From assembly GCA_002030045.1 (NCBI GenBank), contig LQBI01000024.1:266848-330847 (forward strand): 64,000 bases of DNA. The letters run 5' to 3'. The translations under genes and the position numbers were made by a program. The notes beneath the pieces were generated by a model. It was not told the DNA's origin and did not search any database. It saw nothing but the letters and a program-made list of their open reading frames with translations. The first letter of the stretch is position 1. Each line of letters begins with the position of its first letter. Origin of the DNA: Candidatus Aegiribacteria sp. MLS_C (GTDB lineage Bacteria; Fermentibacterota; Fermentibacteria; Fermentibacterales; JCC-6). This document shows positions 20,911 to 34,301 of this stretch, in pieces.

Positions 20911-20985
20911 GGTGCCGGGCCTGGAAAAAGGGACATTCCCGGATTGAGATTCCTTGATGATGTCTCATTTTCCAGGCCCGGCACC
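20911..20985. repeat. 18-bp perfect inverted repeat spanning the slt stop codon
   Basis: The arms at 20911-20928 and 20968-20985 are exact reverse complements, with a 39-base spacer. The right arm codes the last residues of the Slt-type protein, and its stop codon lies at the arm edge. Within the spacer a small GGGA-CAT-TCCC hairpin, followed on the minus strand by five T, may act as a terminator. Confidence 0.7.
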
Positions 20986-23166
20986 ATAAAGAGACATGTA
21001 GATAACGTACGCGTGGTTGACGTTCTGGGTGTAGGCCCTTGTTTCATTGAAGGTTATCAGTGAGAAGAACTCTTCGGTCCCCATGTCCCCGGCGCCCCAG
21101 TGCAGAGCGTTGTGAGGTCCTCCGTTGTAAGCTGCGGCGGTGAACACAGGATCGCCTCCGAAACCCCTGCTTATGCCGGATATGTAGGTTATTCCGTAAT
21201 GTATGGACATCTCGGGATCGTACAGCCTGTCCGGTGAGTAGTCGTCCCATCCGTTCTCTAGCGCCACATACTCCGAGGTGCTGGGGATCATCTGAATAAG
21301 ACCCCTTGCACCAGCCACCGAGTAGGTCCACGGCTGGAACATGCTCTCGTTCCTTATGACCGCCCATGCGAAAAGAGGGTCCAGACCGCAGGTCTCGCCA
21401 GCCGGAACAACGAACTCCGGCCATGCCATCTGGTATCGCAGCATCCAGAGCTCCCTGGGCCTGTCGTTCTCGTCATCCGAGAGGTCCCACATGTTGTAGC
21501 CCGAGATAGGTCTCCGTTCCCAGACGCTGTTGTCAAGGTAGAAGGGAGCAAGGTACTGCGGTCCTCCCACCTTTTCCTCACCGGCCCTGAACTCAGCGTC
21601 GGCATAGCTCCTCAGACCTGCCTCCTGCAGGAATAGACCCCTCAGGGTCTCTTCCGGAGGTTCCACGGGAGAAAGACCGTGTCTCATCATCCAGTCCTCG
21701 AGAGGTTCCTCGGTAAAAACAGGTTCCCATGGGGGAATCCCAAGGAACTCCCTTGCGAAACGGGCGGGAAGACTGAAGGGAGCTGACACCGTGAGATCCT
21801 CGAGAATCCTTCTGCCATCCGGGTTGCCCTCAGAGTAGAGAAGCCTTCCCATCCAGTACCTTGCGGAGGAAAGGTAGACGCTTGCGGTCCATCTTGAGAT
21901 GAAAGCCTCGAGTTCGGAGACCGCCGCGGAGATGTCACCCGATTTCATGAGCGAGAAACAGAGGTAGAAATGGGAATCGTCGGCGGTGACGTTCCCCGGA
22001 TACTTCTCCAGGGTCATCCTGAACCATGGGACAGCCCTTTCCCATAGCCTGTTCTCGGCCAGCATGTTTCCTATGTACCAGGGTAGATTACCGATCCGTG
22101 CATGTTCCGGGAACCGCTCCCCGTACTCGAGCAGAGTCCCCAGTCCCTCCTCCGGTCTTCCGATGCGCCCCAGGTTCCTGCCGAGATTTATCAGTGCATC
22201 CGGGCAGTCCTCGCCCTCCGGCCACCTCGCGAGATACTCTCTCAGCATGTCAACCGCCGTATCATAGAAACCGAGCCTGTCCCTGGTCCTGGCGGCAAGA
22301 TACCACAGATGCGGGTCGGGGTTCTCGGAATTGACAGCGACATCGTAAAGCTCGTTCCAGAGACCTCCGGAATAGAAGTCGTCGGCGAGGGAAGCTCCCA
22401 GCCATGCGGTCTCGAGTATCTCTTCCCTCAGAATGTCGTAGGCTGCGGCATGGACCGGGGCTGCAGGCCACAGGCCGAATGACCTGAGGAACTGGTCTCT
22501 GTATCCGGCGAGGCCATGCTGCATCATCCATGATGCACGGTAATGGCAGAGGAGCGACAACATTTCGTCGTTCCCGGATCCCTCCGCATTCCTGAACACC
22601 GAATCGGCGGCGTCAGCCATGCCCTCACCCAGAAGTGACCTGTACAGGAGGATCGTTCTTCTGTCGGCCGCTTTGCCGGATAGAACGGAAGGCACCGGTT
22701 CCAGGGCCTCAAGCGCTCCCCGTGTATCGCCGGCGGCAAGCAGGGTGTCAGCCAGGACCAGATGGAGGTATTCCGGCAGAACGCAACCGTTCCTGGACAG
22801 GTACGACCTGAGAGCAGGTACGATCCGATATCCTCCGATCTCCAGGGCCCTGTACGGAGCCAGTGAGTCGGGGGTCTCGAGCAGGAGCTGGGCTGTGACA
22901 AGGTTCATCTCTCGGGAAGCGTCAGCGGCTTTTCGGGCCAGCTCGCATCTGATACCGTCCTGCAGGGGTCTGAGGAGAGCGGCTCTGACGTATTCTTCCC
23001 GGGCTTCATTCCCTAGACCGCAGGCCAGGAGAGAATCGCCCCTGGCCTCCGCCAGAAGGCTCCTCTCGGTGGAGGAAAGCGTTTCGTCGGGCTGCACCGT
23101 CCTGCAGCCCGCAAGGGCCAGCAGAAGGAAAAGGGGCTTGAGCAGCCTACTTCCTGTACTTGGCAA
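20965..23166 (-). CDS. Slt-type lytic transglycosylase, lipoprotein
   Basis: This periplasmic murein-cleaving enzyme has a lipoprotein signal (basic residues, LFLLLALAG, Cys21), a long helical superhelix of TPR-like repeats (about 40-500) as in Slt70, and a C-terminal SLT domain with the catalytic glutamate in IRNESMF (Glu607), AGARGLIQMIPSTS and AAAYNGGP. The start is inferred: TTG 23166 gives a good signal peptide and has GGAA seven bases upstream; no ATG is suitable. It overlaps the preceding TPR gene by 20 bases. Product length about 733 residues, slightly longer than E. coli Slt70. Confidence 0.88.
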   Translation of the reverse strand: MPSTGSRLLKPLFLLLALAGCRTVQPDETLSSTERSLLAEARGDSLLACGLGNEAREEYVRAALLRPLQDGIRCELARKAADASREMNLVTAQLLLETPDSLAPYRALEIGGYRIVPALRSYLSRNGCVLPEYLHLVLADTLLAAGDTRGALEALEPVPSVLSGKAADRRTILLYRSLLGEGMADAADSVFRNAEGSGNDEMLSLLCHYRASWMMQHGLAGYRDQFLRSFGLWPAAPVHAAAYDILREEILETAWLGASLADDFYSGGLWNELYDVAVNSENPDPHLWYLAARTRDRLGFYDTAVDMLREYLARWPEGEDCPDALINLGRNLGRIGRPEEGLGTLLEYGERFPEHARIGNLPWYIGNMLAENRLWERAVPWFRMTLEKYPGNVTADDSHFYLCFSLMKSGDISAAVSELEAFISRWTASVYLSSARYWMGRLLYSEGNPDGRRILEDLTVSAPFSLPARFAREFLGIPPWEPVFTEEPLEDWMMRHGLSPVEPPEETLRGLFLQEAGLRSYADAEFRAGEEKVGGPQYLAPFYLDNSVWERRPISGYNMWDLSDDENDRPRELWMLRYQMAWPEFVVPAGETCGLDPLFAWAVIRNESMFQPWTYSVAGARGLIQMIPSTSEYVALENGWDDYSPDRLYDPEMSIHYGITYISGISRGFGGDPVFTAAAYNGGPHNALHWGAGDMGTEEFFSLITFNETRAYTQNVNHAYVIYMSLYGAGPGK

Positions 23167-24361
23167 GTTCCTGTTCCAGTTCGGGATGGCCCGGTGCGGT
23201 CTGCTGTGCCCTCTCCAGCAGCTCCAGGGCCTTTGCATGGTTTTCCTGTGCTGCGTATGCCCGGCTGAGGGCGATCATCACTCCCGTGGAAGACCCCGAA
23301 CCCTCCTCGAGATAATTCTGCAGGAAGTCGATACCGTCCTCGGGCCGGCCGGTGATGACCATCAGGGTTCCGAGACCCGAGATCGCCGGTTCCAGTTTCG
23401 GATCCAACTCCAGGGCTTTCCTGAAGTGTTCCTCCGCCTCCTTCAGGTTGCCCCTGGAGGCCTCTATATGTGCCATGTTGGCCAGCAGTTCCGGACTTTC
23501 GGGACTCAGTTCCAGGGCTTCCCGGAGGTCTGACATGGCCTGACCGTACTCCGCGTTGTTGAAGTGAACGATGGCCCTGCGGTTAAGATCACGGACCCTG
23601 TTGTCCTGTACCTCCACCGAATGCAGTGCCAGGAGTTCCTTCATCTTCTCCAGTTCTCCCGTCTGGGAACTGGCCGTTTCGGCCACCTTCTCATGAATGG
23701 CCGAGACTTCCCTGGCGGTCTCGGTCTTTATCTCCTCAAGAGTGGATTCGATGGCTTCTCTGGCCTTGTCCATCTTTCCCGAAATATCCCTGAGATCGCC
23801 GGAGAGCGTTCCGATGCTGTCGGATATGGCCTTGCTTCGGTTTCCCTCGGTTTCGACCACGATGCGGGAGATGGTCTCCTCCAGTGACTTGGAGGACTCG
23901 GATACCATGACCGAGATGTCGCTGAGAGAGGAACTGAAGAGTTCTCTGCCCACCGAGTCCTCGGGACCGTCCGCCAGAGCTTTCAGCAATTTGACCTCTG
24001 ATTCGCCCAGGTCCTTCCGAAGACCCGCGAGTTCCTCCCTGAGTTCGTCCAGTTTGACGATCATCCCCTCTGTCTGATCCGAAACCCGCGGGGACACGGG
24101 AGATTCGGGACCAGCCTCGGCGGCGGCCTGGGGCAAGGGAGCTCCGGAGATACTCGAAAGAAGCTCGTTCGACCTGGCCAGCTCGGAGGTTACGGCCTTG
24201 AAGTTACCTTCAAGAAGCTCCGACAGACCTTTCTCCAGGCTCTCCAAGCGCTTGTCGACCTTGAGCACCGATTCGTTGAGCTTGATGACCAACCGGCCTA
24301 TTCCCTGTACAAGCTCCTGCATAGAGATATCACTAGTGCCATTCTCCGGCTTGTCGCTCAT
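23147..24361 (-). CDS. Coiled-coil and TPR protein
   Basis: This 404-residue protein has no signal peptide. Residues about 15-270 are a charged, heptad-rich region with repeated Leu/Glu/Lys patterns, suggesting coiled coils and possible self-association. Residues about 270-400 form roughly three to four TPR units (AIVHFNNAEYGQAMSDLREA, HFRKALELDP, ALELLERAQQ). No enzyme motif is visible. Its ATG overlaps the stop of the large solenoid gene and its end overlaps slt, so the three are probably co-translated. Role inferred only from context: scaffold for an envelope or cell-wall function. Confidence 0.85.
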   Translation of the reverse strand: MSDKPENGTSDISMQELVQGIGRLVIKLNESVLKVDKRLESLEKGLSELLEGNFKAVTSELARSNELLSSISGAPLPQAAAEAGPESPVSPRVSDQTEGMIVKLDELREELAGLRKDLGESEVKLLKALADGPEDSVGRELFSSSLSDISVMVSESSKSLEETISRIVVETEGNRSKAISDSIGTLSGDLRDISGKMDKAREAIESTLEEIKTETAREVSAIHEKVAETASSQTGELEKMKELLALHSVEVQDNRVRDLNRRAIVHFNNAEYGQAMSDLREALELSPESPELLANMAHIEASRGNLKEAEEHFRKALELDPKLEPAISGLGTLMVITGRPEDGIDFLQNYLEEGSGSSTGVMIALSRAYAAQENHAKALELLERAQQTAPGHPELEQELAKYRK

Positions 24362-27300
24362 TTCTCACCTTCTATTCCCATGTCGACGCTGAGCCCTGAT
24401 ATCGTGTCCAGCCTGTCGGGGTCATATTCCCTGGTGTCCCTGGAAAGAATTCCGGCTGTTTCCGGGTACCTTCCGGCCAGGAATCGTTTCAGAGCCGACC
24501 TCTCTAGCGAGGCCCCTGACTGTTCCAGTGCCCAGTACAGCCGCTTCAGGGATTCCCCGCTGGAATTCTCCCTGAAATCGGCCATCCAGGTGTGGATCGC
24601 CTGCTGCCTGTAGCCCATGTTCCAGAGCGCCAGCGCCCTGGTATCGGAAACGGCATGCGACCTGTCCTTCCCGTCATTCAGGATCTCCAGCGCCTGCCCC
24701 GGTCTGCCTGTGATTATCAGGTCGAAGGCTGTTGACGGATCTCCCGATACTTCATCCCTGTCAAAGGCGGCCGACCTGGTACGATGCAGTTCCTCCCTCA
24801 CCATGGACAGAGCTTCATCGCTGCCGGAAACCCTGGCTATCTCGGAAGCTTCCACCAGCATTCCCGCCGACAGCAGGACATCCACCATGCTCTTCATCTC
24901 GTCCGTCGACAGCTGGTCCTCCTCCTTCATCCCGCGATAGTTCTCGAGGAGCTTCACCGCAAGCTCCCTGCGAAGATCCATCTCGTCCCTGGGGAACAGC
25001 TGACCATCCTCCGCCAGCTGGAACAGTCTGCGTATACCCTGGCCTGAATGGAGGACAGCGGGTGCCATTGCCCTCAATTCATCCCTGTCGATATTGGAGT
25101 AGTCGTCGGGAAGCAGCCGTTCCATGGCCTCGGAGATGACCTTTTCGACCCTCACGGAGTTCCAGAACCTTATCCTGTCGGCAGAACCCTTCTCCACCGA
25201 ATCGAGGAGCTTCATGGATGCCCTTGTCCTCCAGGGCTCCTCACCCCCGGAAGCCAGCAGGCATAGAAGGTCCTCTCCCCTCCCGGCGAACGGGGTCTCG
25301 AGGACTTTCTCGGAAAGCAGTAGAAGCGGTTCGCCGTCAGACCCGGGCGACCAGGCCTCGATCCCCGACTCCAGCAGGGCCTCGTTCAGCGGCAGGGTGA
25401 GGTCGACGTTATCCTGGAGTATCCTGGCGAACTCTTCCCCGTCACCAGCTGCCAGTGCGCAGACCGCCCGCGAAGCCGGACCCATCCTGTGGAATTCCTG
25501 GAGGAGTCCCTCCTGAACCAGTTCAGGTTCCAGCAGGACAGCACTGGTAACGAGGCCGTCCGTATCAGCCTGTACACGGTGACGGGAAGCGATCCGGGCG
25601 GCGTAGATGTAGGCCTGTCCGGAGGATTTCTCGGCAGCCATGGCGGAGGCCATTCCTACCACTTCCTCCGCAGCCTCGGCGTTTATCTCAAGCATCACCG
25701 CCGAGTACCTCTGGAATCTGTCGAAATCCCCCCTGAGACCCGCGGTCCTGGTCAGGGAATGGACCAGATGGTACTCTCCCGGGTTTTCTTCCACCATCTC
25801 CTCCAGGAGTTCCAGCACTCCATCCTCCTCGAGAACGGGATCCAGCACCGCCGACACTTCCTCGAAGTTCTTCTCTGTCCTGTGGGAACGGGCTATGAGC
25901 TTCCTTATCTTCGTCCCGTTGGCCGGTGACTTGGGCAGTATGAACTCGAGAACGTTCCTGGCCATTGCAGAGGACCAGGGCCGGACCACCGGCTTCTCCA
26001 GCAGTTCCAAAGCCATGCTGTAGTTGTCCCTGACGGTTTCGGCACAGGCTTCCGCAACGCTCTCGATGAGCGGTTCTCCTATGCTGCCGCTTTCGAACGA
26101 GGATCCCGCCAGCACGACCCTTTTCCTTGAAATGAGGTAACGGAACCTGAACTGGGCAACCTCAGCCGGCTTGTCCCATTTCAGTGAAGTGGCCAGAGCA
26201 ACCTTCCATTCCTCGTCACCGCCGATCTTCTGCAATATGGAAGAGACGGTCTCGGCCGCGGGTCCCTCGGAAACCCTTGAAAGGATTGCCTTGAGGTCCA
26301 GCTGGGCCCTTTGTTCGACGGGCATGGTATCTATCCTGCGTACAATGTCGGCCTGGAGCTCCGGATCCTCCATCGCGAGAGCCATGTAGGAGTTCGCCTG
26401 CTCCGCGTTGTCCTCCCTGAGGCAGACCATGGCCACAATGAATGCCTGCCAGGGTGAGGATGGCGAGAAACCCGAGCCAACTATGTCAGCCACCGTGCCG
26501 ATCTGCACGTCCTCCCTCGACAGCAGCTGCTGTCCCTCCGGAACAGGGGTCCTGCCCCTGAGAAGCAGCCTGAACCAGTCGTCAGCCGCCTCCATCTCCC
26601 TCTCCGACCTGAGCCTGAAGATAGCCCTGGCCTCCCTGAGGTCCGGATACTTCTCCACCTGCTTGTCCATAGCGTCCAGTACGGCGGAGGCATCGGCGCA
26701 GAACTTCCTGTCCCTCTTCCTGGAAAGCAGCTCCAGTGTAGCTATGGCCTTTGCCTGCTTGCCGGTCTCCAGGAGGACCGCCGCCAGCAGGGTCAGCACC
26801 TGCGCGTTGTTCCTGTCCCTGGAAATCAGCGTCTGAACATGCTCGAACACCCAGGAAGGGTCCGCGTCTATCACCGGCACCAGAGAGAAGACGGCGTCAT
26901 CGATCTCGCCGTTCTCGGAAAGGAAATGCGCAAGCTTCATGGCTATGCTGCCGGCCGAGTCTCCGGTCTTCTCGATGATTCGACCGCATACCTCGAGGAG
27001 CCTGGAAGGCTCCGCATCACCGGCTTCGAAAGCCTTCTCCACTGCTTCTATGGCATCTTCCAGTCTGCCCTTCTCCAGGTTCATCTGCGCCGCCAGGAGC
27101 TGAGGCGCCGCACCGCTGTCCGGATGAGCCACCAGATCCTCGATGGCGGATTCCAGCTCCTCCCTGTCCAGGCTCTTGCTGTAGATGCTCTCCAGGGTCT
27201 TCGATGCGGCGTCGGTCTTGCCAGCAGCGGTGTACATCTCCGCCAGAAGGGCCGATGACCTGCCCGACCTGTCAACCGGTACCATGTACTTCTCTATTAC

Positions 27301-28038
27301 ACCGGCTGCGTCCGTTGCCTCGTCGGCCGAGGGTTCGGATTCGGAAAGCCTGGCGGCGAACTGGAGCGCCTGGTCCATCTTCCCCGTCACCGCCGCTATG
27401 CCCATAAGGGGTGTATAGTACAGACTGTCAAGGTCCTTCATCTGGTTGCTGATCCAGAAGGCCAGAAGAGGTATATCCCTGTGGGGGTACTCGACCTCTT
27501 TGCATACCTTCCAGAGGAATTCTATCGCTTCTCCTGTCCTTCTTTCCCTGTGGAGATTGAGGGCCCATTCCACCAGGGACGACTGGTCGGCCTCCGGGTG
27601 GACCGTTCCGTCGAACCGCATGGAACTCTCCATCTTCTCCCTGATGATGTCGAAGAGGCTGTTGACCGTCAGCTCATCGGCCTTGCGAAGGACATCGAGA
27701 GCTCCCCTGAAATCGTGCATGTCCATGTAACTTCGCCATATGACCCTGAGAAGGTCCGTTGACCTGGAGAATTCGCCGAGCCTCCCGATGAGGATGTCCC
27801 TGATGTCCACAGCTACAGGACGATACCGCCTCATGACCTCCTCGGCTATGCTCGAGGCAAGGTTTGGATGCCCTATCTCGAGGAGCATCTCCACCAGCTC
27901 GACGGCGACATCGCTCTCTTCCAGGAGGATGTCCTTCTCCTCCTTGACGGTGGAGGAAACCTTGTTGACACTACCCTCTTCGGCGAACTTCCGGATCTTC
28001 TTCAGTGTCTTTCGCGGGCCGGATTCAAAAAGCGCCAT
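24358..28038 (-). CDS. Very large helical-repeat (TPR-like) protein
   Basis: This protein of about 1226 residues has no clear signal peptide or membrane helix and is built almost wholly of amphipathic helix pairs of TPR or HEAT-like character (for example AGKTDAASKTLESIYSKS and GKQAKAIATLELLSRK). I do not recognise a named family. Start ATG 28038 was preferred to a GTG three codons upstream because AGGTGA lies at suitable distance. Its gene follows mltD by 13 bases and precedes the coiled-coil TPR gene with a four-base overlap. It is likely a cytoplasmic scaffold, but its localisation is not shown by the sequence. Confidence 0.85.
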   Translation of the reverse strand: MALFESGPRKTLKKIRKFAEEGSVNKVSSTVKEEKDILLEESDVAVELVEMLLEIGHPNLASSIAEEVMRRYRPVAVDIRDILIGRLGEFSRSTDLLRVIWRSYMDMHDFRGALDVLRKADELTVNSLFDIIREKMESSMRFDGTVHPEADQSSLVEWALNLHRERRTGEAIEFLWKVCKEVEYPHRDIPLLAFWISNQMKDLDSLYYTPLMGIAAVTGKMDQALQFAARLSESEPSADEATDAAGVIEKYMVPVDRSGRSSALLAEMYTAAGKTDAASKTLESIYSKSLDREELESAIEDLVAHPDSGAAPQLLAAQMNLEKGRLEDAIEAVEKAFEAGDAEPSRLLEVCGRIIEKTGDSAGSIAMKLAHFLSENGEIDDAVFSLVPVIDADPSWVFEHVQTLISRDRNNAQVLTLLAAVLLETGKQAKAIATLELLSRKRDRKFCADASAVLDAMDKQVEKYPDLREARAIFRLRSEREMEAADDWFRLLLRGRTPVPEGQQLLSREDVQIGTVADIVGSGFSPSSPWQAFIVAMVCLREDNAEQANSYMALAMEDPELQADIVRRIDTMPVEQRAQLDLKAILSRVSEGPAAETVSSILQKIGGDEEWKVALATSLKWDKPAEVAQFRFRYLISRKRVVLAGSSFESGSIGEPLIESVAEACAETVRDNYSMALELLEKPVVRPWSSAMARNVLEFILPKSPANGTKIRKLIARSHRTEKNFEEVSAVLDPVLEEDGVLELLEEMVEENPGEYHLVHSLTRTAGLRGDFDRFQRYSAVMLEINAEAAEEVVGMASAMAAEKSSGQAYIYAARIASRHRVQADTDGLVTSAVLLEPELVQEGLLQEFHRMGPASRAVCALAAGDGEEFARILQDNVDLTLPLNEALLESGIEAWSPGSDGEPLLLLSEKVLETPFAGRGEDLLCLLASGGEEPWRTRASMKLLDSVEKGSADRIRFWNSVRVEKVISEAMERLLPDDYSNIDRDELRAMAPAVLHSGQGIRRLFQLAEDGQLFPRDEMDLRRELAVKLLENYRGMKEEDQLSTDEMKSMVDVLLSAGMLVEASEIARVSGSDEALSMVREELHRTRSAAFDRDEVSGDPSTAFDLIITGRPGQALEILNDGKDRSHAVSDTRALALWNMGYRQQAIHTWMADFRENSSGESLKRLYWALEQSGASLERSALKRFLAGRYPETAGILSRDTREYDPDRLDTISGLSVDMGIEGEK

Positions 28039-28051
28039 TGTGGTCACTCAC

Positions 28052-29464
28052 CTACTCAGGAATGATTACCAGGACTTCACCGAGGGACAGGAAGCTGTTC
28101 TCGAGGGAATTCAGGTACATGATCTGCTCTATCGAGACCCCGTACCTCATAGCCAGGTCCCATAACGTATCACCCTCGACAACGGTATGCGTTATCCTTC
28201 CACCTCCGGATACTATATTTATTTCATTTTCCGTGGGAAGGGCCGGAGCCTCGGGTTCGATCGTCCCACCGCTCACCCCGGTCCGCCTGAGGAGCAGGAC
28301 ATCACCGGGGAAGATAGGTTCATCAGGTGACATCTCGTTCCACTGGGCCACCTCGCGGGAACTGGCCCCGACGGTGGCAGCGATCTCGCTCAGTGTATCC
28401 CCCATCCTTACCGTGTACCTCACGAACTGGGGGTTCTCCGCGTAACCCGCGTTCACCGGTTCCCTCTGGCTCTCAGGAATAGCGATATAGGTGCCCGGCT
28501 GGAGGGATCCCGCAGGATTCATGCCCATCAGAACCTGGGCAGAGACACCGAGCGCGGCGGCTATGCCCTCCCAGCTGTCGCCTTCCCTGACCAGGTATCT
28601 GCGGGGGTCCATTGACCATGCGGCGTTGAATGCCTCCCCCGCGTACTCTATCGGGACCACGACCTCCCAGGCGTCCTTCTCGGAAGGCGTCCTCTCCAGC
28701 AGGTAGGACCTGTTCAGTTCCATGAGGTGATCGATGTTCATTCCCGTCTCAACCGCAAGCAGCCTGAGATCGAAATCCCCGGGGACCCAGATCACTGCAA
28801 GTCTCCCGGCATCCAGTTCAACCTGAACGTAGGCCTCGGCGGCGGAAGCGAACCTGGGAACGAAGGCATCGGTCTCCCCGGGAAGCTCGATCTCGCCGAA
28901 AGTGTTGCCCCCCTGCCTGAGACCGGCCTGGACCCTGCCCGGACCGCAGTTGTAGGCGGCTATTGCAAGCGACCAGTCGTCGAAGATACTGTACAGATGT
29001 CTGAGATAGCGTGCCGCTGCCCTGGTGGAAGCGACCCATGAGTACCTCTCGTCCACCGTGTCGTTGATCTCCAGCCCCAGCTCCCTTCCGGTGGTCGGCA
29101 TGAACTGCCAGGGTCCAGCGGCTCCCATTCGGGAATAGCATCCTACGCTGAAGTTGCTCTCGATCCAGACAAGGGCGGCGATTTCCATGGGTACGCCCTC
29201 GCTGCTGAGTATCTGCTCGACCAGGTCCTTTATCTCCCCGCTTCCGGGGAACTGTTCAGGCCGGTAACTGATATCACTGATCTGCGCCAGCGATGCCGGA
29301 ATGTCAGTGGATGGAGCCTCGAAGGTTTCGGGGACGCTTCCCTGTATGACGGGCAATACCATCAGGTCCACGGACTCAGGCGTGTCCTCTCCGGCCTGGC
29401 GGTGGTCGAGGCTCGTCATCCTCGCTCCCGAACAGGCCGACAGGGTCAGACTTGACCAGAGCAC
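28052..29464 (-). CDS. MltD-like lytic transglycosylase with three LysM domains
   Basis: This exported peptidoglycan-cleaving enzyme has a lipobox-like LTLSAC at the N-terminus, an SLT catalytic domain (about 85-230) with WIESNFSVGC, GAAGPWQFMPTTG and AAYNCGPGR, then three LysM carbohydrate-binding modules (about 285-330, 345-395, 420-470: LVREGDSWEGIA, TVRMGDTLSEIA, TVVEGDTLWDLA). The listed GTG start leaves a signal peptide without basic residues; upstream in-frame codons encode Arg-rich sequence but no standard start codon, so the 5' end is uncertain. It is divergent from asd with only 42 bases between the starts. Confidence 0.9.
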   Translation of the reverse strand: MLWSSLTLSACSGARMTSLDHRQAGEDTPESVDLMVLPVIQGSVPETFEAPSTDIPASLAQISDISYRPEQFPGSGEIKDLVEQILSSEGVPMEIAALVWIESNFSVGCYSRMGAAGPWQFMPTTGRELGLEINDTVDERYSWVASTRAAARYLRHLYSIFDDWSLAIAAYNCGPGRVQAGLRQGGNTFGEIELPGETDAFVPRFASAAEAYVQVELDAGRLAVIWVPGDFDLRLLAVETGMNIDHLMELNRSYLLERTPSEKDAWEVVVPIEYAGEAFNAAWSMDPRRYLVREGDSWEGIAAALGVSAQVLMGMNPAGSLQPGTYIAIPESQREPVNAGYAENPQFVRYTVRMGDTLSEIAATVGASSREVAQWNEMSPDEPIFPGDVLLLRRTGVSGGTIEPEAPALPTENEINIVSGGGRITHTVVEGDTLWDLAMRYGVSIEQIMYLNSLENSFLSLGEVLVIIPE

Positions 29465-29479
29465 GGCTGTAAATATGTA
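29452..29479 (+). promoter_or_regulatory. Possible promoter for asd
   Basis: TTGACC (29452-29457), 16-base spacer, TATGTA (29474-29479), followed by a strong GGAGG site at 29495 and the TTG start of asd at 29507. The -35 lies inside the start of the divergent mltD gene. Confidence 0.35.
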
Positions 29480-29506
29480 TCGGGTTATACGAACGGAGGT
29501 GTCCGC

Positions 29507-30490
29507 TTGGTTACCGCAGGTGTAGTTGGTGCCACCGGTCTCGTCGGCGAGACAATGATAGAGATTATTCAGGATCGCTCCTTTCCCGTGAGCAGTTTCC
29601 GCGCGTTCGCCTCAGAAAGGTCGGAAGGGCAGAAGGTACGCTTCCTGGGCGCGGAGTACCCGGTTGAAATAATAACACCCGAGACTTTGTGCAAGGGAAT
29701 GCTGCTCTTCGGAGCCACCTCGGCAGATGTGGCGAGGATGTGGGTCCCGGCATGCAGACGGTCGGGTGCGATTATCATCGACAATTCCTCGGCGTTCCGA
29801 ATGGACCCCTCGGTCCCCCTGGTGGTGCCGGAGGTCAACGGCCACCATCTCGACGGTACGGAAGACCTGATCGCAAATCCCAACTGTTCGACGATACAGC
29901 TGGTCGTGACCCTCGGACCCCTTTCGGAAATGGGAAGGATGCAGTGGGTGAGCGTTGCGACCTACCAGGCGGTATCAGGTGCGGGAAGGGAAGCCCTTGA
30001 CGAGCTTTCAATGCAGCAGAGAGGACACGTTGCCCCCGAGGGAAGTGTAAGGCTCCATGAAAACGTGGTCACCAGCATCGGCGATCCGGCTTCTGACGGG
30101 TACTGCGAAGAAGAGGTGAAGCTGATGAAGGAGACATGCAAGATCATGGGTATTGAGATCCCGATCTACGCCTCCACGGCCAGGGTCCCCGTCAGGACCG
30201 GACACACCGAGGCGGTGACCGTCAGGTTCGATGAACCTGTGGATGCACGGAAGGCGGCGGATATTCTGAGGAGCGCTCCCGGTCTGACGCTTTCCGAACA
30301 CGGGGCGGCCCCCCTGGATTCCGAGGGAACAGACTCCGTCATAGTGGACAGGCTGAGGGTCAATCCGGCTGACAGCCGGGCTCTCCAGTTCTGGGTCATA
30401 GCTGACAATCTCAGGAAGGGGGCGGCACTCAACGCTGTCCAGATAGCGGAGGTATGGCTGGCGGCGGCGGAAAAAGGCGGCCGCCGGTAA
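29507..30490 (+). CDS. asd: Aspartate-semialdehyde dehydrogenase
   Basis: This 327-residue enzyme reduces aspartyl phosphate to aspartate semialdehyde with NADPH, for lysine/diaminopimelate, threonine and methionine synthesis. The Rossmann motif VGATGLVGE opens the protein. The catalytic cysteine is in ANPNCSTIQ (Cys127) and the active-site His in RVPVRTGHTEAV (about 235). It starts with TTG and has GGAGG seven bases upstream. It stands alone on the plus strand between two minus-strand operons. Confidence 0.95.
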   Translation: MVTAGVVGATGLVGETMIEIIQDRSFPVSSFRAFASERSEGQKVRFLGAEYPVEIITPETLCKGMLLFGATSADVARMWVPACRRSGAIIIDNSSAFRMDPSVPLVVPEVNGHHLDGTEDLIANPNCSTIQLVVTLGPLSEMGRMQWVSVATYQAVSGAGREALDELSMQQRGHVAPEGSVRLHENVVTSIGDPASDGYCEEEVKLMKETCKIMGIEIPIYASTARVPVRTGHTEAVTVRFDEPVDARKAADILRSAPGLTLSEHGAAPLDSEGTDSVIVDRLRVNPADSRALQFWVIADNLRKGAALNAVQIAEVWLAAAEKGGRR

Positions 30491-30527: not shown

Positions 30528-31265
30528 CTAGATATCCACGTCCATATCGTCGAAATCGAACTCGTCGTCGAGGTCCTGGCTCAGGTCCTCCAGCTCTGCG
30601 TTGCATTCCTCACAGACCACGAGATGAGGCGGATTGATGTGTCCGCACTTGGGGCACCTGTTCACCTCTGTGTCCTCCCCGACGTCCTCGAGTTCCATAT
30701 CAAGGCTCTCGGCCTGGGCGGCGGGTTCCTCCTCGATCAGTTCGGTCTCGTCTATGTCCAGGACCTCGGCGGGTTCGGTATCGGCCATGGACCCGATCGA
30801 TTCGTCCATGCCCGGCACTCCGGCTGAAGTTGCATGGTCTACGTCGCTCAGGACTCCGTTCAGGTCGTTCAGCTCCTTCCGAAGCTTGTCCAGCTCGCTG
30901 GAGGTCTTGTCCCGCTCGGTCTCGGCAGTGTTCAGTTCTCTCTTGAACTCGTCATTGTCGTGATTGAACTCTCCGAGCTTTGCCCTTATCTGGAGTTCGT
31001 CCACCTGGTCCGACTGCTGGGTGAAAGTTTTCTCCTTCTGGCTGATCTGCTGAGCCAGTTCCTTCGCCTTTGTCTCCAGAGAACCCCGCTGCTCGTTGAT
31101 CTTCTCGAGTACCGACTGAAGCTTGGTGCTGTAGTCCTCGCGGATCTTCTTGTACACCCTGGTGTTGGTATCTGGTTTCATGTTCTCGAGGTTGTTCAAC
31201 CGGCCCACCAGTTCTTCCCTGCGGTCAAGCAGATCAAGAATCTTCTTCTCGAGTACCTCTGCCAT
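30528..31265 (-). CDS. Coiled-coil protein with C-terminal zinc ribbon
   Basis: This is a 245-residue cytoplasmic protein. Residues about 5-130 are heptad-rich coiled coil (with KELAQQISQKEKTF), 130-200 a highly acidic linker, and near 205-225 a zinc ribbon formed by CPKCG and CEEC. The tail is again very acidic. It resembles in outline the CT398/zinc-ribbon coiled-coil proteins of unknown function but I cannot assign a family. An AGGAGGAG site precedes its ATG. It precedes holA by 67 bases on the same strand. Confidence 0.75.
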   Translation of the reverse strand: MAEVLEKKILDLLDRREELVGRLNNLENMKPDTNTRVYKKIREDYSTKLQSVLEKINEQRGSLETKAKELAQQISQKEKTFTQQSDQVDELQIRAKLGEFNHDNDEFKRELNTAETERDKTSSELDKLRKELNDLNGVLSDVDHATSAGVPGMDESIGSMADTEPAEVLDIDETELIEEEPAAQAESLDMELEDVGEDTEVNRCPKCGHINPPHLVVCEECNAELEDLSQDLDDEFDFDDMDVDI

Positions 31266-31332: not shown

Positions 31333-32331
31333 TTATCGAGAAGCACTTGTCAAGGCGAAGATGAGTCCAGCCATGACCACTGTCACATCGCCGCCGGTTT
31401 TCAGCTCGTAGTCCGCCCGGGCAAAGGCCTCCGCAGCTTCCGCGATACTGTTTCGACGCAGGCTGTCTGCATAACCGATCAGTCTGTCCAGCAGAGGGAA
31501 TCTCGCTCCTGTTGCGGCGGTCACTTCCCTCTTGCCGCCCCCTCTGTCAAGTACATCGGCAGCCGCTACTACCTTCTGCCAGGTGCTGTGGAGGTATCCG
31601 ACGACGGCTATGGGTTCCTCTCCCTGTGATATCAGTCTGGCGGCGCAGTCAAGTGCGCCGTTCCTTATTCCTCCGAAGACCAGGTCTCCCAGCTGGAAGA
31701 TGTCCGCCCCACCCCTGCCGGAGAGGACCTCTCTGACTCCCCTTCCGTTGACCATACTGCCTCCGCCGTGGTAGATGGCAAGCCTGGTCAATGCATCTGC
31801 CAGCCTCTGAAGGCTTCTTCCGGAGTACTGTGCCAGAAGACCGGAGGCCTCCCTGTCCAGCCTTATTCCCTCCTCCGAGGAGATCCTGGAGATCCAGCCC
31901 GGGATCTCCTTCTCGAATGGCTCGTAGCATATGTAGAACGGTACCAGACTCTCCAGTTTCCTCAGAACGGAGGATTCCCTGGGAACGGCTCCGGAGGTCA
32001 GAAGAACGGCGGAATCCTGTATCCCCTTCCTGATGGACTCCATCAGTTCCTCCATGGAGGCTTTCCCAAGCTTCTGCGCCTGGGATATCATCAGGAGATG
32101 TCCGCTGAAGAAGAGCGACCCCTCCTGCAGCATCCTCTTGAGGTCTCCCGTTTCCAGCTCGCCTGCGTCCCGTCTCAGAACGTCAAAGCCAAGGCCGCTC
32201 CTGTACCTTCCCACTGCAGCTTCCTGAAGACGGCCTGACTGGTAGAGATCCGGTCCTGCGGCAACCAGTACCGTGCCGGCTCCGGAGGAAGATATCAGAT
32301 GTTCCATCTCGCGATAGCTGCGCACCTTCAT
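31333..32331 (-). CDS. holA: DNA polymerase III delta subunit
   Basis: HolA is the clamp-loader subunit that opens the sliding clamp. The 332-residue protein has the divergent AAA+-like layout of the family: N-terminal VLVAAGPDLYQSGRL, central SLFFSGHLLMISQAQKL, RSLQRLADALTRLAIYHGG, IFQLGDLVFGG and a C-terminal helical collar with AVVGYLHSTWQKV. Length matches. The weakly conserved family makes the call slightly less secure than others. It is divergent from the PpiD-like gene with 95 bases between. Confidence 0.85.
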   Translation of the reverse strand: MKVRSYREMEHLISSSGAGTVLVAAGPDLYQSGRLQEAAVGRYRSGLGFDVLRRDAGELETGDLKRMLQEGSLFFSGHLLMISQAQKLGKASMEELMESIRKGIQDSAVLLTSGAVPRESSVLRKLESLVPFYICYEPFEKEIPGWISRISSEEGIRLDREASGLLAQYSGRSLQRLADALTRLAIYHGGGSMVNGRGVREVLSGRGGADIFQLGDLVFGGIRNGALDCAARLISQGEEPIAVVGYLHSTWQKVVAAADVLDRGGGKREVTAATGARFPLLDRLIGYADSLRRNSIAEAAEAFARADYELKTGGDVTVVMAGLIFALTSASR

Positions 32332-32426: not shown

Positions 32427-34301
32427 ATGCTAACCTGGCTAAGAGACAACGCAAAGATATTCCTTATCGCGACCATTGTCATATTCGTCGCCCTGATCTT
32501 CCTGCAGTGGGGAATGGGCGAGGAAGGGGGGCTGCCCCGGAACCCCTACCAGAGACCCGTGGCCACTGTGGACGGCAAGAAGATCATGCCCGACCAGTAC
32601 CAGGAGGCTCTCCAGTCAATGGGGGACCGGTATCGCAGGGTCCTTGAGAGCAGCAACAACCCCGACCCGGAAGCAATGATGATGCTCATGGGTCAACGGC
32701 TCTCCGAGGAGGCGTTCCAGGAGCTCATCGATGCTGAGCTCCAGAGCATATACCTGAGGAAGCACAATTGGGATCAGTTCACGCTGGAGCAGGCCGAGGA
32801 ACTCCTGGTGGCACAGATCGGCATGCAGGACCTGGACGACATCGATCCTGCGGACTACCTCGACATGATACGCGACGAACAGCCGGGAGTCTTCCAGCAG
32901 TACCTCTACCAATCCTACGTCAGCGGCAATTCAATGCTCTTCCCAATGGCCGTGGGAATGGTCAGCATGGCCAGTCTCAACGAGGTCAGGTACATGGAGA
33001 TGGAGACGCAGGCCCTCATCACCGCAAGGTACATGATCATCGACTCCATCCCGCCGGAACCCGATGAGAACTACCTCAGGGAGTTCTTCCGGGAGCATCC
33101 GGAGGAATTCAGCAATACGGCCGGATCCATTCTGCGTTACGTAACCGTTCAGGTACCGCCCAGGCAGGAGGACATGCAGACGGCCCTCGAACGTCTCGAT
33201 TCACTTGCATTCGCCTCTTCCGGGATCTCCTTCACTTCCACCAGGACCCAGCTGGCGCAGGCCTTCGGCGACACAATGGACCTCCAGCCGGGGCAGAGGA
33301 CCGATCCATTCATGGGCATGTACTCCGGCAATCCATCCATAAGCGGATACCATGTCATGATGCTTGACTCCGTTCATCATTACAGGGACACTCTCACAGG
33401 CGCGGAAGGTTCCTATATGCTGGATACGCTATTCCTTCGCGACTGGGAGGTACCGGTCTTCCCCGGCTACTCCACAATAAGGAACATGAAATGGGACCTT
33501 GAGTCCGGCATGGAGGCAATGCTCTCAGAATCGATCCCGGAGATACCCGATACCATGGTTATCCTGGATTTCGGGGATATGCTGGTTGGCGAGGACACTC
33601 CGACGGGAGAGGAGATACCTGAGGAGATGGTGGTCTTCGCCTCGGATACCATGTGGAACGATCAGTTCGGACCCGTCTTCTACCGGCCCTCCTTCCGGGG
33701 AGGGTATCCCGCATTCACAATAGTGAGACGACTGGAGTTCTTCGAGGCCGATACGCTGGACTACGAAGAGGCACTGGCCTCGGGCCAGCTCATGGAGACC
33801 GCCTACCACCACCTCATGCGCGAAGCCGCGCTTGAAAGGGCCGAAGCGATGCTGGCCAGGATCAGGGATACAGGCATGAACCTTGCTGCATTCGCGGAGG
33901 CTGAATCCATAGAGGTCTATACCACTTCACCCTTCACCGCCTCGGAGATCAGGACCAACGCAAGGACTGATCCTCGGGCCTCAGGCGGCATCATGCACTG
34001 CGAAGAATTCGCAATGGCCGCCATGACAGCGCCCGAGTTCCGGGTGATCGGTCCCTTCTTCACCGGACCCGACTGCATTCTGGCCGAAGTACTGTCCAAG
34101 CAGCTGTCCTCCGAGAACCCGGACATGCAGTCCATAGTCTACATCTCCACCCAGTACGGCCACCAGCAGCTGGCTTCGGAGCAGATACTCGAGAGACTGA
34201 GGAAGGATTACGAGGTCCGGGATCTGAGGGATGAGTGGACCGAGTACCTTGAGTCCATGGAAGACTCCATCAGGACGGAGCAGGAGCAGCTGGAGGAGTA
34301 G
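32427..34301 (+). CDS. PpiD/SurA-like membrane-anchored chaperone
   Basis: The 624-residue protein has one N-terminal membrane helix (about 10-28, FLIATIVIFVALIFLQWG) with the rest outside the cytoplasm. Next comes a SurA_N-like segment (RPVATVDGKKIMPDQYQEAL) typical of PpiD. A normal parvulin domain is not evident; regions around 215-330 and 410-470 (GPVFYRPSFRGGYPAFTIV) may be degenerate versions. Likely a periplasmic folding factor rather than an active isomerase. GGGAG lies just before the ATG. Its stop is only two bases from the convergent btuC stop. Confidence 0.8.
   Translation: MLTWLRDNAKIFLIATIVIFVALIFLQWGMGEEGGLPRNPYQRPVATVDGKKIMPDQYQEALQSMGDRYRRVLESSNNPDPEAMMMLMGQRLSEEAFQELIDAELQSIYLRKHNWDQFTLEQAEELLVAQIGMQDLDDIDPADYLDMIRDEQPGVFQQYLYQSYVSGNSMLFPMAVGMVSMASLNEVRYMEMETQALITARYMIIDSIPPEPDENYLREFFREHPEEFSNTAGSILRYVTVQVPPRQEDMQTALERLDSLAFASSGISFTSTRTQLAQAFGDTMDLQPGQRTDPFMGMYSGNPSISGYHVMMLDSVHHYRDTLTGAEGSYMLDTLFLRDWEVPVFPGYSTIRNMKWDLESGMEAMLSESIPEIPDTMVILDFGDMLVGEDTPTGEEIPEEMVVFASDTMWNDQFGPVFYRPSFRGGYPAFTIVRRLEFFEADTLDYEEALASGQLMETAYHHLMREAALERAEAMLARIRDTGMNLAAFAEAESIEVYTTSPFTASEIRTNARTDPRASGGIMHCEEFAMAAMTAPEFRVIGPFFTGPDCILAEVLSKQLSSENPDMQSIVYISTQYGHQQLASEQILERLRKDYEVRDLRDEWTEYLESMEDSIRTEQEQLEE

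Follow-up and report, generated by a model that had tools for sequence, protein, structure and literature searches.

We analyzed a 64,000-nucleotide stretch of the genome of Candidatus Aegiribacteria sp. MLS_C, of the phylum Fermentibacterota (contig LQBI01000024.1, positions 266,848 to 330,847; hereafter the window), in which an operon of four intact, co-directional open reading frames occupies positions 20965-29464 of the minus strand (Table 1). Transcription runs from an MltD-like lytic transglycosylase (gene 1) through a 1226-aa solenoid protein (gene 2) and a coiled-coil protein with a tetratricopeptide repeat (TPR) domain (gene 3) to an Slt-like lytic transglycosylase (gene 4). The initial annotation of this locus described the four genes as overlapping or lying within 13 bases of one another, and proposed that two murein hydrolases co-translated with two non-enzymatic scaffolds point to an unrecognized envelope-remodelling or cell-division assembly. 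The description of the layout holds, and the genes are translationally coupled: the gap between genes 1 and 2 is 13 nt (4 nt if an in-frame GTG upstream of gene 2 is used), the end of gene 2 shares 4 nt (ATGA) with the start of gene 3, and gene 4 overlaps gene 3 by 20 nt if it starts with the TTG at 23166, near the 3' end of gene 3. This TTG is the most likely start because the orthologues in loci L036 and L039 begin there. The start codon of gene 1 is uncertain, its coding frame remaining open upstream beyond 29500; across 29464-29520 of the minus strand no ATG, GTG or TTG is placed so as to yield a normal signal peptide of the lipoprotein type, the sole canonical start lying 10 codons before the cysteine. 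A canonical start is likewise absent at codons -70 to -6 in the gene 1 orthologues of L036, L042, L048, L049, L051 and L053, where the lipobox is conserved, and we suspect that gene 1 uses a non-canonical start. Scans for sigma-70 promoters and terminators returned no more matches than expected from shuffled sequence.

The arrangement is conserved phylum-wide. Gene 2 orthologues are present in 41 of the 42 genomes of the same order (counting the window's own and allowing fragments) and, at single-sequence sensitivity, in 0 of 18 other genomes; the closest named loci encode gene 2 proteins with 71% and 58% identity and place the host in Candidatus Fermentibacteraceae. Because the same genes recur in the same order and on the same strand, with near-zero spacing, in all 18 relative loci that are not cut by a contig end, the four-gene arrangement is far beyond chance, and it persists while gene 2 identity among these loci falls to about 26%. 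Two further loci truncated by contig ends (L052 and L054) are consistent as far as they can be read. Wherever a Fermentibacterota locus is intact, orthologues of genes 2 and 3 are accompanied by both transglycosylases.

Both enzymes look like exported lipoproteins that are catalytically intact by motif, and lipobox-like N-termini are found in most of their orthologues. Gene 1 combines an SLT domain (PF01464, 3.5e-22) with a following array of LysM repeats (2.5e-32), and its catalytic motif W[IV]E[ST] is retained in 20 of 20 orthologues. SLT domain, LysM repeats and lipoprotein character are those of MltD, a family 1D lytic transglycosylase, although gene 1 has three LysM repeats against the two of MltD; as it reaches only 139 bits against the NCBIfam MltD equivalog NF008050 (cut-off 508), we refer to it as MltD-like and do not file it as MltD. 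In gene 4, an SLT domain (5.5e-20) follows TPRs (TPR_16, 6e-11), and the motif ES..GARGLxQMIP is likewise found in all 20 orthologues. Gene 4 resembles Slt70 and BB0259-type Slt in its helical-repeat superhelix, C-terminal SLT domain, and ES and GARGLxQMxP motifs, but differs from both in its apparent lipoprotein character and in falling below both NCBIfam cut-offs (for the Slt70 equivalog NF008631, 76 bits against 536). A flagellar, BB0259-like role for gene 4 was rejected, since no FliF (YscJ_FliF match) was found in the genome. Two further Slt-like TPR transglycosylases stand in tandem on contig C13 of the host genome (L059 7494-11968), with CBS-type membrane transporters and a purH-like gene close by, and SLT gene pairs at similar spacing occur in several relatives.

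The initial annotation assigned gene 2 to no known family, which is true of most of its length; the protein nevertheless passes the Pfam TPR_19 cut-off (34.3 against 25 bits). Sequence searches found no known structure for it. An AlphaFold (AF2) model of residues 1-1200, built from three sequences only, is an all-helical solenoid of about 70 helices (predicted local distance difference test (pLDDT) 69, predicted template-modelling score 0.37). Its best Foldseek matches are the IFT-A protein TTC21B (4e-11) and Ski3 (1e-9). Gene 2 shares its general fold with these eukaryotic giant TPR scaffolds (IFT139/TTC21B and Ski3) across more than 1000 residues, but at template-modelling scores of 0.1-0.2 and with no evidence of common descent. 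In the model of gene 3 (TPR_2, 3.5e-19), long helices lead into a TPR domain predicted with confidence (residues 251-400, pLDDT about 77-94); the best Foldseek matches of gene 3 are consensus TPRs, OGT, PilF, MamA and NlpI. A hydropathy test, used in place of a trained predictor, detected no signal peptide, lipobox or transmembrane segment in 21 gene 2 or 20 gene 3 orthologues, and both proteins are probably cytoplasmic. Since the enzymes are lipoprotein-like, scaffolds and enzymes would occupy different compartments, making direct contact impossible. In nearly all orthologues, few 18-aa windows of gene 2 are as amphipathic as those within residues 1-20, which are also locally basic (a net charge of +3 to +6 per 18 aa) against the acidic background of the protein. 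Since TPR arrays begin with an amphipathic helix in any case, we regard a membrane anchor at this position as a lead only. Binding of the helix to a membrane or to a partner is possible; E. coli MreB binds the membrane through a basic amphipathic helix of such kind (PMC3163269).

The idea that gene 2 is an orphan restricted to its phylum was overturned by profile searches with gene 3 and with a zinc-ribbon protein encoded near the operon, which led to genomes G143 and G144; we then searched with the 1295-aa protein of G143 and finally with a four-member profile. In G143, a homologue of gene 3 (1e-31) lies directly downstream of this 1295-aa TPR protein, and there is no SLT transglycosylase near the pair. 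Altogether, 11 genomes from seven family-level lineages outside the phylum yielded giants, 1165-1313 aa long, of which the shortest is truncated by a contig end. Alignment of these giants with the Fermentibacterota gene 2 family by hhalign was co-linear over 1084 columns (E 1.1e-21), against a local alignment of 171 columns (E 0.011) for an unrelated control, the Slt-type TPR superhelix. A profile of the N-terminal 250 residues of gene 2 matched the N-terminus of the outside giants in register with a score of 79.6, other windows of the same proteins scoring at most 50.8. From these comparisons, the outside giants are likely orthologues of gene 2. In lineages f33, f105, f117 and f161, as in all intact Fermentibacterota loci, a coiled-coil partner lies directly downstream of the giant; outside the phylum, the spacing ranges between an overlap of 4 nt and a gap of about 33 nt, and the partner in f33 is cut by a contig end, with the TPR part beyond the readable sequence. 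No export signal was found in the outside giants tested, and no SLT-type transglycosylase stands beside the giant in any of the 11 outside genomes, some of whose loci are short. The initial annotation had named scaffold orthologues without transglycosylases in most genomes as grounds for refuting its proposal; counted by lineage, this is the situation outside the phylum but not inside it. The outside partners (L121 12167-13771, L122 3495-5024, L109 4044-4880 and L093 8845-10326) begin with a cysteine motif (CPF...C...C...C; no Pfam match) that is absent in Fermentibacterota. In genome G292 of lineage f117, a candidate MltG/YceG gene, recognized by sequence resemblance, lies two genes downstream of the giant-TPR pair (L120 763-1758).

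The nearest functional analogue that we found for gene 2 is SgmX of Myxococcus, a TPR-rich protein of 1060 aa without signal peptide or transmembrane segment. SgmX has MglA-GTP and the coiled-coil protein FrzS as binding partners and causes polar localization of PilB, thereby activating type IV pili (PMC7519303, PMC11580455). Gene 2 resembles SgmX (with FrzS and MglA in M. xanthus) and Bd2492 of Bdellovibrio in being very large and TPR-rich, in lacking a signal peptide or transmembrane segment, and in having a coiled-coil partner. The comparison is one of description, not of sequence, and we claim no family membership: SgmX is shorter than the giants, and FrzS has a receiver domain where gene 3 has a TPR domain. 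MglB-type Robl_LC7 genes are present in all 11 genomes with outside giants and hence in 7/7 lineages, against 12 of 36 controls chosen one per family (Fisher p 0.0016, the lineages not being independent).

We lean, by a little, towards the explanation that, in a single phylum, a self-standing cytoplasmic scaffold pair, analogous to SgmX and FrzS, acquired translational coupling with two wall hydrolases; genes 2 and 3 probably form a separate scaffold module, hitherto undescribed, instead of holding the enzymes. The gene 2 solenoid would serve as a docking platform, which the coiled coil of gene 3 would oligomerize or extend, and the pair would organize an assembly from within the cytoplasm, perhaps at the inner membrane by way of the basic N-terminal helix of gene 2. 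Genes 1 and 4 would cut peptidoglycan in the periplasm from membrane-anchored positions. In Fermentibacterota, placing the scaffold pair between the enzymes and co-translating all four genes would keep their amounts proportionate, with no binding of scaffold and enzyme proteins to each other across the membrane. In favour of this explanation, the divergence of gene 2 tracks that of a cytoplasmic neighbour, the zinc-ribbon protein, and not that of the enzymes in the exploratory comparison given below. Several points weigh against it. Orthology of the outside giants is likely rather than proven, because E-values of repeat-protein profiles can be inflated and, within Fermentibacterota, a search with the outside profile failed to retrieve gene 2 at E 1e-30. 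The coiled-coil partner is absent beside the giant in lineages f107, f132 and f201. The MglB-type Robl_LC7 genes that an SgmX-like function would lead one to expect are carried by just 6 of the 12 Fermentibacterota tested, though gene 2 occurs throughout, so that an SgmX-like role is plausible in the outside lineages and unproven here. Finally, the phylum-wide translational coupling with the enzymes itself suggests more than coincidence.

If that coupling is taken at face value, the scaffolds might hold both murein hydrolases directly in one envelope-remodelling complex, as the initial annotation supposed, and TPR adaptors are indeed known to control wall hydrolases, as NlpI with Prc does for MltD in E. 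coli (PMC10931528). Genes 2 and 3 resemble NlpI-Prc and LbcA-CtpA of P. aeruginosa in that a TPR protein is tied to wall hydrolases, MltD included. However, NlpI and LbcA are envelope lipoproteins, NlpI residing in the outer membrane (PMC10931528), and they serve a protease, whereas the operon encodes no protease and its scaffolds appear to be on the other side of the inner membrane from the enzymes. We consider such direct holding very improbable, and we found no evidence for a role in cell division. Another explanation is a trans-envelope machine: the cytoplasmic pair, through an inner-membrane partner, would mark a site of building (elongasome, type IV pilus or other) at which the transglycosylases act as dedicated wall openers. 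The strict coupling of all four genes across the phylum fits this, as do the small number of SLT proteins per genome (only about 3-4, of which genes 1 and 4 make up half or more), the lack of scaffold neighbours at the other two SLT genes of the host, and a membrane-anchored SurA/PpiD-like gene within the same conserved block. Yet the scaffold lacks SLT neighbours in every outside genome, no bridging membrane protein was identified, and in an exploratory comparison of pairwise divergences (28 pairs, no tree-aware null) gene 2 showed no covariation with the two enzymes (partial r 0.24 and -0.52); within the genus, it covaried with gene 3 (0.68). We judge this machine unlikely, though not far-fetched.

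The same comparison lends something to a further account, an operon of convenience, in which the scaffolds have a cytoplasmic role unrelated to the envelope, perhaps together with the zinc-ribbon protein, and share transcription with housekeeping wall enzymes for historical reasons. The strongest of the 28 rate covariations joined gene 2 to the zinc-ribbon protein (partial r 0.78, and 0.76 once genera g4 and g5 were removed), with the limits of an exploratory analysis already given. The conserved block is wider than the operon, comprising also the divergent asd, the zinc-ribbon gene, holA and the SurA/PpiD-like gene before synteny decays, and conserved neighbourhood alone is therefore no proof of joint function. 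Outside the phylum, a holA-like gene stands beside a zinc-ribbon homologue in G144 with no transglycosylase. On the other hand, overlaps are tighter within the four genes than in the remainder of the block, and we regard convenience, too, as improbable.

Taken further, the idea of a self-standing scaffold pair would have the TPR giant and its coiled coil form a widespread, undescribed system, present in eight or more family-level lineages, which directs the placement of membrane machinery from within the cytoplasm and in Fermentibacterota has been hard-wired to two dedicated wall-opening enzymes, giving inside-out control over the site of wall cutting; we offer this as speculation and consider it unlikely. 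Should the pair serve as a scaffold for polarity or assembly, it would be the first candidate for spatial organization of the envelope in a set of uncultured phyla, and the Fermentibacterota operon would offer a direct genetic handle from a cytoplasmic scaffold to named wall hydrolases. Even on a modest reading, a conserved pair of proteins emerges which Pfam and NCBIfam recognize as no more than generic TPR, and the obvious supposition that the enzymes are held by the scaffolds is set right.

Table 1 Features of the operon and its conserved neighbourhood in the window.
Feature	Position	Strand	Basis and remarks
Gene 1, MltD-like lytic transglycosylase	28052..29464	-	Lipoprotein-type N-terminus (LSAC), SLT domain 28913-29197, three LysM
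Gene 2, 1226-aa TPR-type alpha-solenoid, predicted cytoplasmic	24358..28038	-	TPR_19, AF2 model, Foldseek; net charge -68
Basic amphipathic N-terminal helix of gene 2, residues 1-20	27979..28038	-	Amphipathicity and local charge
Gene 3, 404-aa coiled-coil protein with C-terminal TPR domain, predicted cytoplasmic	23147..24361	-	TPR_2, AF2
Gene 4, Slt-like lytic transglycosylase, putative lipoprotein (LAGC)	20965..23166	-	TPR superhelix, then C-terminal SLT domain 21082-21393
asd (aspartate-semialdehyde dehydrogenase), divergent from operon	29507..30490	+	PF02774 1.8e-32; order conserved
245-aa cytoplasmic coiled-coil protein, C4 zinc ribbon, conserved acidic C-terminal tip	30528..31265	-	Conserved in 19 loci
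holA (DNA polymerase III delta)	31333..32331	-	PF21694 7e-8
Membrane-anchored SurA_N/PpiD-like chaperone	32427..34301	+	PF13624 6.9e-14; adjoins holA in 18 loci

Among the neighbouring genes, an apparent loss of asd in some genomes was an artefact of long antisense open reading frames, and its order proved conserved on recheck. The extreme C-terminus of the zinc-ribbon protein, whose gene adjoins holA, is strongly conserved in 19 orthologues (DEFDFDDMDVDI / DEDFDLIDDDLDL) and is reminiscent of an SSB-type acidic tip. An alternative reading of this tip as the ligand of an EEVD clamp was dropped, clamp residues not being evident in gene 3. The arrangement in G144 has the holA-like gene, assigned by sequence and position, immediately followed by the zinc-ribbon homologue (1.5e-30; L092 6990-9068). 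MltD-like loci outside the phylum gave no gene 2 match by gene-family profiles; at three of them, from three other family-level lineages (L079, L084 and L085), the MltD-like transglycosylase adjoins a candidate SppA-type signal peptide peptidase, judged from its N-terminus only.

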